Assembly (NCBI GenBank): GCA_031256905.1
Contig: JAIRPY010000038.1
Span: 1 to 40,976, forward strand
Origin: Spirochaetaceae bacterium
GTDB taxonomy: Bacteria; Spirochaetota; Spirochaetia; Treponematales; Breznakiellaceae
Direction: 5' to 3'
DNA: 40,976 nt
Numbering within the stretch: the first letter of the stretch is position 1; each line of letters begins with the position of its first letter. Position numbers and translations under genes: made by a program. This document shows, in pieces, positions 34,134 to 37,536 of the stretch. A model generated the notes under the pieces. That model searched no databases. It saw only the letters and a list, made by a program, of their open reading frames with translations, and was not told the DNA's origin.

Positions 34134-34925
34134 TTAACGCCGCCGCAGTAAGGCTTCTAAGACGCCGCCGGCGATGGCTAAAGCTTTATCCGATACGGTA
34201 AAGCAGTGGGCCCTTTCGCATCGGGGATCGATGTCGCCGGCTTTAAGTCCTTTCCATACAGCTATACCGGAGGGCAGAATCCCCCGCAGAATTCCGTCTA
34301 ATCCGGCCCGAATCGGAACATCCGGAGCTTTTTCGGTATGAATTATCCCTACGAGATCTCCTTTTTTTACCGAATCTCCGATTTCGGCTTTTCCCTCGAA
34401 GATACCGTCGGCTTCTGCCCGGAGTAATCGCTCGATGGTAAAGCCTCCGATATCTCCTGGAACTCCGGTGTTGGGTAACGCGCCGCCTTTGGTAATAACC
34501 CGTCCCAGGGTATGTCCTCGTTGGGTCTCGATTACGGCATGGCAGTCAAGCCCGGCGATAAACCCCGGTCCAAGGCCGATAACTATCGGCGCATCGGTTA
34601 TCCGGGTCCCGAGATTCCGCTTCCCGAGAATCGCATCGATTAGCCCGGCGGGTTTCAGCCGTTTTACTGCCGCCCCGGCCGGATCGACCAGGATCGGAAT
34701 CCGTTTTTTCTCCAGAGCCTCCCGGAGACCCGCATCGTCCGGCACTAACACGCCGACGGCGTCTTCGACTTGGGCGGTTCCTTCGTACACGGCCCGGCAG
34801 AACGAAACGGTTCGCCGGACCGCCATAGGCTGAGGAATTTCGGTCAGGGCGATGGCAAAACCCGCATGAAACAGCCGCAGGGCGATTCCGGACCCGATAT
34901 CCCCGGCGCCTTTTATGATTATAAT
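34134..34925 (-). CDS. yqeB: YqeB/EF2563-family selenium-dependent molybdenum hydroxylase accessory protein
   Basis: Accessory protein of the selenium-dependent molybdenum hydroxylase system; the exact reaction is not known. The first in-frame ATG (34826) would give 230 aa and lose the conserved N-terminus. In-frame sequence upstream encodes IIIKGAGDIGSGIALRLFHA, the expected family start, but contains no ATG, GTG or TTG back to at least 35015. The likely start is ATT (34925-34923) or the adjacent ATA, with GGAGGG a few bases upstream, giving about 263 aa. The start overlaps the xdhC stop, so translation is coupled. Other family segments are MAVRRTVSFCRAVYEG, IGLGPGFIAGLDCHAVIET and GGFTIERLLRAEADG. 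Confidence 0.85.
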   Translation of the reverse strand: MIIIKGAGDIGSGIALRLFHAGFAIALTEIPQPMAVRRTVSFCRAVYEGTAQVEDAVGVLVPDDAGLREALEKKRIPILVDPAGAAVKRLKPAGLIDAILGKRNLGTRITDAPIVIGLGPGFIAGLDCHAVIETQRGHTLGRVITKGGALPNTGVPGDIGGFTIERLLRAEADGIFEGKAEIGDSVKKGDLVGIIHTEKAPDVPIRAGLDGILRGILPSGIAVWKGLKAGDIDPRCERAHCFTVSDKALAIAGGVLEALLRRR

Positions 34926-35923
34926 ATTTCCCTCCGTTCGGCCCGGCGTAAAATAAGCTCTCCGGCGATGCTGATGGCGATCTCCGCCGGGGTTTCCGAG
35001 CGGATTTTTATACCGATAGGAGCGTTCATTTTGTTAAGGACTGCTTCCTTTGCCCCTTCCTGCAAAAGCCGTTCTTTTATAGTAGCGATTTTTGTTTTAC
35101 TGCCGATGCATCCAAGGTACGCCCAATCCCGGGCGATAAGGCGCCGCAATACCTGAAAATCCGAGTTGTGAGTCATCACAATGACATAATCCTCCGGAGA
35201 AACCGGAACGTCAATATGATCGTAATCGATCAACTCCAACTTGGCGGACCTCGAAAACTTCTGGGGATTCAAAAATTCCGGCCGGTTATCGAATACCGCG
35301 CATCGGAATCCCAGGCCGCTTAACACCGGTTCCAGGGCCTGGGCGACGTGTCCCGCGCCGAAAATTAAAACCCTTCCGGGGGTGTTTATAGGTTCGCTGT
35401 AGATGCATCGGTTTGGGCCCTGGAGGAGCGCGGTTTTGGGCTTCGCTAGGGAGGCCGCTTCTTCGGGGGTCACCGGGCCGGGGGTGAGGGGGAAACCGGG
35501 TCCGTAAAGCTGAATCTCCCATCGGCGGGGATTCGTAAGGTCGATGAACAGCCATAGGGATTGGTTGGTGCTTTCGATGTAATCCAAGCCTTTCCGGAGC
35601 AAGTCCCGGACCGGACTTTCCCGGGGGATATATTGAAAGAGAAGATCCACATCTCCGCCGCAGATCATGCCGAGGTCTTCTTCGTCGTTGCGCCGGAGCC
35701 GATAGGACTTCCGTAAGGAACGCCCTTCCCGGAGCAAGGTTAGGCCCTGGCGAATCGCCGCGTATTCGACAGGCCCCCCGCCGATGCTTCCGCAGACCCG
35801 GCCGGCTTGGGTTATCAGCATATTTGCGCCGGCTCCTCGGGGGCTGGACCCCCTTTGGGATACGATAGTCGCCACGAGGGCATCTTCATCCCGGCGGCCT
35901 AGGATTTTGCATATTTCTTTCAT
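34919..35923 (-). CDS. xdhC: XdhC/CoxI-family molybdenum hydroxylase maturation protein
   Basis: Binds molybdenum cofactor and aids its sulphuration and insertion into xanthine-dehydrogenase-type enzymes. The 334-aa product has the N-terminal XdhC/CoxI domain (VSQRGSSPRGAGANMLIT, CGSIGGGPVE, GMICGGDVDLLFQYIP) and a C-terminal Rossmann domain (VLIFGAGHVAQALEPVL; YVIVMTHNSDFQVLRR; YLGCIGSKTK). It overlaps the next gene, yqeB. The start lacks a Shine-Dalgarno sequence and a promoter sits 8 nt before it. The cognate hydroxylase is not in this window. Confidence 0.93.
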   Translation of the reverse strand: MKEICKILGRRDEDALVATIVSQRGSSPRGAGANMLITQAGRVCGSIGGGPVEYAAIRQGLTLLREGRSLRKSYRLRRNDEEDLGMICGGDVDLLFQYIPRESPVRDLLRKGLDYIESTNQSLWLFIDLTNPRRWEIQLYGPGFPLTPGPVTPEEAASLAKPKTALLQGPNRCIYSEPINTPGRVLIFGAGHVAQALEPVLSGLGFRCAVFDNRPEFLNPQKFSRSAKLELIDYDHIDVPVSPEDYVIVMTHNSDFQVLRRLIARDWAYLGCIGSKTKIATIKERLLQEGAKEAVLNKMNAPIGIKIRSETPAEIAISIAGELILRRAERREIL

Positions 35924-35980: not shown

Positions 35981-37108
35981 TTACTTGCCCAGGGTATCCT
36001 GAAGGACGGCTAAGGTTCGTTTTGCGCATTCGTCCCAAGAGAATAGGGCCGCCCGTTCAAGTCCTAATCGGCGGCATTCCCGGTAGACTTCTCGGTTGGT
36101 GCTGAGGGTTATCATTCGGGTGGCCATATCTTCGGGGCTGTAGGGGTCGAAGTAGAGCGCGCTGGCATCGGCGGTTTCCGGGAGACTTGAGGTTCGGGCG
36201 CAGGCCACCGGCGCGCCTGAAGCCATGGCCTCCAGGGCCCCGGTGCCGAAGCCTTCGTATAAAGAAGGAATGACCACAAAATCCGCGCCGGCGTACAATT
36301 CCGGGAGGTTTTTGACGGGGAAATGGCCCGTAAAGAAAATATCGTTTTTGTAGGCCGAGGCGGCCGCGGCTTCCTTTACTTTTTCCGCCTGATAATCATC
36401 CGAACCGGCCAGCACCAGCCGATGCGGGTAATTCGTTTGATCCTTAAAAATCCCGAAGGCCTCGATTAACCTTACATGGTTTTTTACCGGATGCTCAATT
36501 CGGGAGATGTAAAGGATATAGGGTCTTCGGAAACTGAAAGGCTGAATGAGAACCACCCGTTCCTCGTTTCGGGGCCGAGGATAAAAGGCCGAATGATCCA
36601 GGCCGTTCAGGACCACCTCAATGAGGGATTCCTTTACTCCGGCCAGTTCCACCAGTTCCTGTTTGATCCAATTACTCACGGCGATGATTCTATCGAGGCG
36701 CCCCAGGGCCTTGATGAGCAGGGGCCGCCCCAGGATATCCCCTAAATCTCCCTTCTTTTTATTTATCCAAGCCATATCATGGACTACCCCGATCGTAGGA
36801 CAGGGCGATTTATAGGGCAAACCCTTATGGGCCGCCGGAAAAAAGCAGGCCTCGTAGGAGCGTTCCCGGGCAAACCGAGGATACGCGGCCAGCCGCCAGA
36901 GCATATTCGCGGTCCGGCCGGGAAACCGGCATCGGGAAACAAATTCTAAATCCAGCTCGGCTTCGCTATAGGCAAAGCGGTCGAAATCCCACCCAAATAA
37001 TTCAAACAAAGCCCCGGACGGCGGAGCCCGTTTTAATATCTGAGTCATATAAACGCCAATCGCTGTTTTGCCGCCTTCGCACCCGAAGGTATCAACCCCT
37101 ATCTTCAT
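35981..37108 (-). CDS. Glycosyltransferase family 4 protein
   Basis: GT-B fold glycosyltransferase, 375 aa. Typical GT4 segments are the N-terminal KIGVDTFGCEGGKTAIG, the middle LYISRIEHPVKNHVRLIEAF and the donor-binding E-x7-E motif in YEGFGTGALEAMASGAPVA. It probably transfers a sugar from a nucleotide donor to a glycolipid or polysaccharide on the cytoplasmic face; donor and acceptor are unknown. It stands alone, 57 bp upstream of xdhC, with its own promoter candidate and no clear Shine-Dalgarno sequence. Confidence 0.88.
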   Translation of the reverse strand: MKIGVDTFGCEGGKTAIGVYMTQILKRAPPSGALFELFGWDFDRFAYSEAELDLEFVSRCRFPGRTANMLWRLAAYPRFARERSYEACFFPAAHKGLPYKSPCPTIGVVHDMAWINKKKGDLGDILGRPLLIKALGRLDRIIAVSNWIKQELVELAGVKESLIEVVLNGLDHSAFYPRPRNEERVVLIQPFSFRRPYILYISRIEHPVKNHVRLIEAFGIFKDQTNYPHRLVLAGSDDYQAEKVKEAAAASAYKNDIFFTGHFPVKNLPELYAGADFVVIPSLYEGFGTGALEAMASGAPVACARTSSLPETADASALYFDPYSPEDMATRMITLSTNREVYRECRRLGLERAALFSWDECAKRTLAVLQDTLGK

Positions 37109-37122
37109 ACAAAACCAAAATA

Positions 37123-37151
37123 AGCATATCAGCAGAAGCCGGCTATAACAA
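37123..37151 (-). promoter_or_regulatory. Promoter candidate of the glycosyltransferase gene
   Basis: TTGTTA (37151-37146), 17 bp and TATGCT (37128-37123) lie on the minus strand, 14 nt before the ATG at 37108. The implied leader is about 7 nt. Confidence 0.5.
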
Positions 37152-37242
37152 GTATACCCAAAAATGAAACCCCGCCCCGCCCCGGGCTTCTGCGCCGAGG
37201 GGGCTCATAGTCCGGCGGGACTTTTCCCGATCCGGCTCTGAG

Positions 37243-37473
37243 AGCCTCGTAGCCTGGGGGGAAAGCCTCATCCCATGGGGGGAGAGCCTCGTAGCCTGGG
37301 GGGAAAGCCTCATCCCATGGGGGGAGAGCCTCGTAGCATGGGGGGAAAGCCTCATCCCATGGGGGGAGAGCCTCGTAGCATGGGGGGAGAGCCTCGTAGC
37401 ATGGGGGGAGAGCCTCGTAGCATGGGGGGAAAGGCTCGTAGCATGGGGGGAGAGCCTCGCAACATGGGGAGAG
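37243..37473. repeat. Eleven tandem copies of a 21-bp repeat (minisatellite)
   Basis: Exactly 11 units of 21 bp fill most of the 477-bp gap between the divergent glycosyltransferase and cobM genes. Two main unit types are seen: A, AGCCTCGTAGCATGGGGGGA(A/G), and B, AGCCTCATCCCATGGGGGGA(G). Units 1-6 alternate A-B-A-B-A-B, a 42-bp higher-order repeat; units 7-11 are all A-like, and the last is the most diverged. Each unit has a run of 4-6 G on the plus strand. Because 21 is divisible by 3, five of six frames stay open (for example heptads LSPHATR on the minus strand), so open frames here are not evidence of a gene. I see no riboswitch or tRNA in the flanks. Confidence 0.95.
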
Positions 37474-37507
37474 AACTTCCCGGCAAGAACGGGCCGGCGC
37501 AAGAGAC

Positions 37508-37536
37508 TTGAAGGAACTGCCTCAGAAGGCTAATGT
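37508..37536 (+). promoter_or_regulatory. Promoter candidate for cobM-cbiG
   Basis: TTGAAG (37508-37513), 17 bp and TAATGT (37531-37536) lie downstream of the minisatellite and about 50 bp before the cobM ATG. The -10 is a weak match. Confidence 0.35.

Follow-up and report, generated by a model that had tools for sequence, protein, structure and literature searches.

A yqeB gene without a canonical start codon at its overlap with xdhC, with a probable AUU start, in a Breznakiellaceae genome

The window analysed here is the whole stretch of 40,976 nucleotides from the genome of a Spirochaetaceae bacterium (family Breznakiellaceae). In it the genes xdhC and yqeB overlap, and both of them, as well as the candidate start codons of yqeB and a GGAGG motif, are located on the minus strand:

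34919..35923, minus strand: xdhC, the upstream partner of yqeB, with PF13478 and PF02625 over their cut-offs
34931..34935, minus strand: GGAGG Shine-Dalgarno site within the xdhC coding sequence, read from the sequence
34923..34925, minus strand: ATT, the proposed yqeB start, 5 nt 3' of GGAGG and one codon 3' of where most relatives have ATG
34920..34922, minus strand: ATA, the second-best candidate for the yqeB start, 8 nt 3' of GGAGG
34919..34921, minus strand: xdhC stop codon TAA, overlapping the first yqeB codons, at the same codon position in the congener G001
34827..34925, minus strand: conserved N-terminal 33 codons of yqeB, before the first in-frame ATG
34134..34925, minus strand: yqeB (TIGR03309), 263 codons from the proposed AUU start to a TAA (stop at 34134-34136)

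The product of xdhC reached 242.3 bits against NF045664, which is below the cut-off of 350. The open yqeB frame extends from 35033 to 34137 and lies in the -1 frame of xdhC, with which it shares an overlap of 114 nt that is open throughout. Both reading frames are free of frameshifts and stops, and yqeB is intact over its 263 codons. An earlier note on this DNA had claimed that yqeB has no ATG, GTG or TTG start, and the codon-by-codon reading agreed with it, as none of these codons occurs between the upstream stop (35034-35036, minus strand) and the ATG at 34826. The GGAGG(G) site at 34931-34935 and the run of AUN codons over the xdhC stop were likewise as that note had described them, the run consisting of ATT (34925), ATA (34922), ATC (34919), and ATA (34916). 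It had also placed the conserved YqeB N-terminus (IIIIKGAGDIGSGIAL) upstream of the first ATG, where it is indeed encoded, from ATT 34925 onwards, while ATG 34826 corresponds to residue 34 and falls past the GAGDIGSG loop.

In order to be read as part of the gene, the stretch before the first ATG has to be coding, and several lines of evidence point in this direction. The yqeB product translated from 34925 scored 341.8 bits against TIGR03309 (cut-off 220) in a nearly full-length alignment (residues 2-261 on profile positions 1-255 of 256). When compared with six relatives, residues 2-33 had pN/pS ratios of 0.22-0.41, similar to those of the rest of the gene (0.25-0.34). In a homology-free scan of 496 genes, sampled from 881 kb (42% of the genome), yqeB ranked first for coding signal 5' of the first canonical start with 12.7 bits, the runner-up having 6.0 bits and the median gene 0.46 bits. 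The stretch upstream of the first ATG is thus real coding sequence under purifying selection, and yqeB is best read as a working gene that lost its usual start signal.

YqeB has a role in assembling a selenium- and molybdenum-containing enzyme. As the genome keeps both selD (TIGR00476, 361.7 bits, cut-off 125) and a molybdenum hydroxylase domain, the protein is expected to be needed. Their retention also speaks against yqeB being a recent pseudogene whose start is gone and which, although untranslated, has not yet decayed. Such a pseudogene would be compatible with the loss of the ATG only in this genome among the three congeners bearing the gene, but we regard it as very unlikely, given 263 codons without stop or frameshift and an N-terminus under selection similar to that on the rest of yqeB (a very recent loss would look alike).

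YqeB was present in 43 of the 195 family genomes (this one included; weak partial matches in G015, G166, and G186 were left out of the count). Of the 40 other yqeB loci in the family, 4 had no N-terminus on the contig, and among the remaining 36 a canonical start was located within 11 codons in 34. In most cases this start was the codon directly preceding the ATT position (ATG in 23 of 36, GTG in 2 of 36) and in 9 of 36 it lay elsewhere within the 11 codons. The two loci that have no such start in this range of the conserved N-terminus (L007 and L035) belong to one genus, whose third member (L034) has an ATG six codons upstream. A scan of genome contigs added only three distant yqeB loci, which are outside these counts. 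The gene xdhC adjoins yqeB in only some relatives.

Three congeners, this genome included, carry yqeB, and the ATG is missing only here. In G001, where xdhC stops at the same codon position, the yqeB ATG lies one codon before the ATT position, and in G004 the junction reads TGATG; near the position of GGAGG, the congeners have AGGGAG or GGAGGGG. When the junctions were compared by eye, the distance from AGGGA to ATCATAAAA was nine bases shorter here than in G001, so that the ATG could have been lost through a small deletion or through base substitutions at this point. The comparison of related junctions, which the earlier note had put forward as a check, showed that the missing canonical start is not conserved, as G001 and G004 both have ATG. 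A rare yqeB start in more than one strain was not found when one assembly of the species was compared with the two other gene-bearing congeners, and a search of viral contigs for the exact xdhC-yqeB junction returned nothing.

The main threat to reading the codon as an AUU start is an assembly or sequencing error, in which the living organism has a canonical yqeB start and the ATT was miscalled in the consensus. The ATG of the congeners would fit such an error. The sequence comes from a single metagenome-type assembly of one strain (73% complete, 137 contigs), and one base difference would suffice to give yqeB a canonical start. We nevertheless consider such an error unlikely. Frameshifts and stops are absent from both xdhC and yqeB, and another gene, ygiQ (see below), lacks ATG, GTG and TTG starts in each of two separately assembled genomes of the genus, so errors do not account for every absent start in this group. 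Fixed non-canonical starts are given for 6 of 2265 conserved genes in Listeria (PMC13068326), and each genome can thus be expected to hold a few natural ones; by our estimate, consensus errors at start codons would be rarer than natural cases.

Taking the yqeB sequence as it stands, the spacing from GGAGG is 5 nt for ATT 34925, 8 nt for ATA 34922, and 11 nt for ATC 34919. Among the 76 pairs of GGAGG and a canonical start found in the genome, 43 were spaced by 4-6 nt, with 15 at 5 nt and another 15 at 6 nt, whereas only 3 were spaced by 8 nt. AUU 34925 is favoured over AUA because its spacing is one of the commonest here and that of AUA is rare. A start at AUA 34922 is quite unlikely in our judgement: this codon is in frame, its 8-nt distance is inside the observed range, and ATA outperformed ATT at Listeria rsbW (PMC13068326), but the same distance occurs in just 3 of the 76 pairs (5 nt in 15), and the resulting N-terminus would be two residues shorter than that of most relatives. 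The in-frame CTG codons at 34880, 34874, and 34847 were rejected, all being past the GAGDIGSG loop, as was ATG 34826, which would cut off the conserved N-terminus since it is positioned after this glycine-rich loop. The gene has two of the features expected of a natural AUU start, namely no canonical start for the conserved N-terminus and a Shine-Dalgarno site at suitable spacing. A natural AUU or AUA start is the most economical reading of the junction, and it is probable, though well short of certain, that yqeB is functional, lacks the ATG of its congeners, and starts at AUU 34925. The proposal of an ATT or ATA start in the earlier note is hence upheld as regards the absence of a canonical start, the coding N-terminus, and the spacing of GGAGG, with ATT now ahead of ATA; that AUU itself is used is what we infer from them.

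Two further aspects of the start region were considered. A 60-nt segment folded at -13.8 kcal/mol, as strongly as or more strongly than 86% of 385 other start regions (median -8.0 kcal/mol), while a 101-nt stretch at the same place had a weaker fold than all 200 of its shuffles, and because the two measures disagree no claim is drawn from the structure. ARAGORN, run on the 60 sampled stretches (about 40% of the genome), detected a single tRNA-Met and no aberrant anticodon, and an unusual initiator tRNA was set aside as the cause on the basis of this sample.

The open -1 frame of yqeB across the whole overlap would permit another route to its N-terminus, namely an XdhC-YqeB fusion made by -1 frameshifting within these 114 nt, and in-frame fusions of the two proteins occur elsewhere in the order. 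A slippery heptamer of the type X_XXY_YYZ was sought in the overlap and not found, and the frameshift fusion was rejected for this reason; six weaker sites permit re-pairing of one tRNA. With a Shine-Dalgarno site right at the junction and a separate yqeB ATG in relatives also standing against it, we consider this route extremely improbable. In other families of the order, six loci (L011, L012, L015, L017, L019, and L020) have XdhC-like and YqeB parts in one open frame, which indicates a fusion of the two genes in those families, as opposed to the separate genes of this genus. Such fusions have also been described in print (PMC2276186).

Initiator tRNA reads AUU imperfectly, and a strong Shine-Dalgarno sequence partly makes up for the weakness of this codon. 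Under the AUU start that we favour, the initiator tRNA would pair with the first two bases of the codon at 34925, aided by the GGAGG inside xdhC. Part of the translation would probably take place by coupling or re-initiation after xdhC, which is likely because the yqeB site sits where ribosomes finishing xdhC arrive. Judging from reporters in other bacteria, the output of yqeB would be expected to be well under the AUG level, and YqeB is likely to be scarcer than XdhC: all tested non-canonical sites in Staphylococcus aureus, including the AUU of cvfC1, reached about 10% of the AUG level in poor medium (PMC13009471), and the Listeria rsbW reporters, whose start overlaps rsbV by 17 bp, ranked ATG > ATA > ATT (PMC13068326). 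It is therefore plausible that YqeB is held at a lower level than XdhC, as the earlier note had suggested, and a weakly made yet needed protein would fit a role in maturation. That the ATG could be lost is probably explained by the many Ile and Val residues in the first strand of YqeB, owing to which near-cognate AUN codons would be present beside the Shine-Dalgarno site in any case. The AUU start of yqeB can be explained without invoking regulation.

In other bacteria, infC starts at ATT or ATC. The analogy with infC autoregulation drawn in the earlier note was not supported for yqeB, considering that infC is TTG-started in this genome and in the parsed relatives (15 of the 15 loci parsed out of 16, this genome included and L086 left out), that no link between YqeB and IF3 control emerged, and that its rare start is not conserved. 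Membership in the class of IF3-autoregulated starts was rejected, as the product is YqeB and not IF3. The TTG of infC occurs in a GGAGGTCAGTTG-like context, which is conserved in most of the parsed relatives (L085-L100, with L091 on C121 of this genome).

The closest parallels are found in genes of other groups. Like yqeB, E. coli infC and pcnB are conserved genes initiated at AUU (cited in PMC5472188 and PMC13009471, respectively), but infC is autoregulated by IF3 (PMC5472188), a loop that YqeB lacks. The S. aureus gene cvfC1 also combines an AUU start with a strong Shine-Dalgarno sequence outside infC, although its start is conserved among staphylococci and was mapped by ribosome profiling (PMC13009471). 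In Listeria monocytogenes, the ATT or ATA start of rsbW overlaps the end of the upstream gene and reflects a recent loss of ATG as in yqeB; unlike here, the alleles came from laboratory selection, affect a regulator, and had their translation measured (PMC13068326). Streptomyces sigR resembles yqeB in having a non-canonical start in a translationally coupled pair, where it affects the ratio of the products, and differs in being the upstream gene of the pair, in using GTC, and in that IF3 dependence was shown for sigR only (PMC5472188).

AUU starts are thus already known but uncommon, with few AUU-started genes documented (examples in PMC13009471, PMC13068326, and PMC5472188), and yqeB would be an added case. 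If confirmed, it would be a gene of metabolism rather than regulation whose ATG was lost in one lineage where two genes overlap, and a natural example of a decayed start codon being rescued by a Shine-Dalgarno site close by. Gene callers that accept only ATG, GTG, and TTG would place the yqeB start at residue 34 and miss the glycine-rich loop.

Other genes without a canonical start were observed in the same genome and its relatives. A ygiQ-like radical SAM gene (named by eye; L148, 5057-6880, on C49 of this genome) has no ATG, GTG or TTG before its conserved N-terminus, and the ygiQ of the congener G003 (L222) is also without one; both share one arrangement, across the stop codon of a gene that by eye is NifU-like. 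In G013, the place that ATG or GTG occupies in three family kin is taken by a CTG, and in G020 the canonical start is absent; in the alignment, this amounts to 4 of 9 family loci. A DeoR-like regulator gene (named by eye; L108, 3838-4695, on C9 of this genome) reads GGAG-AAAAA-ATT with no canonical start before the conserved part, but its start may be further in, as the alignment with its G003 match (84% identity) covers the query only from residue 20 onwards.

The base rate of such cases was assessed in 61 stretches (60 contig stretches and the window; 881,058 of 2,090,473 bases), with the first 20 kb taken from longer contigs except for the window, and compared with 1.2 Mb of G031, a single-contig genome. 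A homology test for missing starts flagged 5 of 186 genes here (yqeB being excluded from this denominator) and 2 of 216 in G031; by eye, three of the five and both in G031 had an ATG at or just past the start of the alignment, leaving 2 of 186 vs. 0 of 216, a difference too small to claim. The top rows of the coding scan in G031 are presumably IS3-type transposase orfB and broken genes. It appears doubtful that non-canonical starts are tolerated in this lineage to a greater extent than in most bacteria, with several conserved genes having drifted to AUU, CUG or other codons and been missed by gene callers; since no one obvious replacement codon recurs across the cases, they lend little weight to relaxed start choice. 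Should the ygiQ cases prove true as well, the stringency of start-codon choice in this uncultured lineage would become a testable question. Elsewhere in the window, a short tandem repeat array that is open on both strands (37143-37511; SPHATRL / MGGEPRS units) is located upstream of a glycosyltransferase-like gene (35981-37108).
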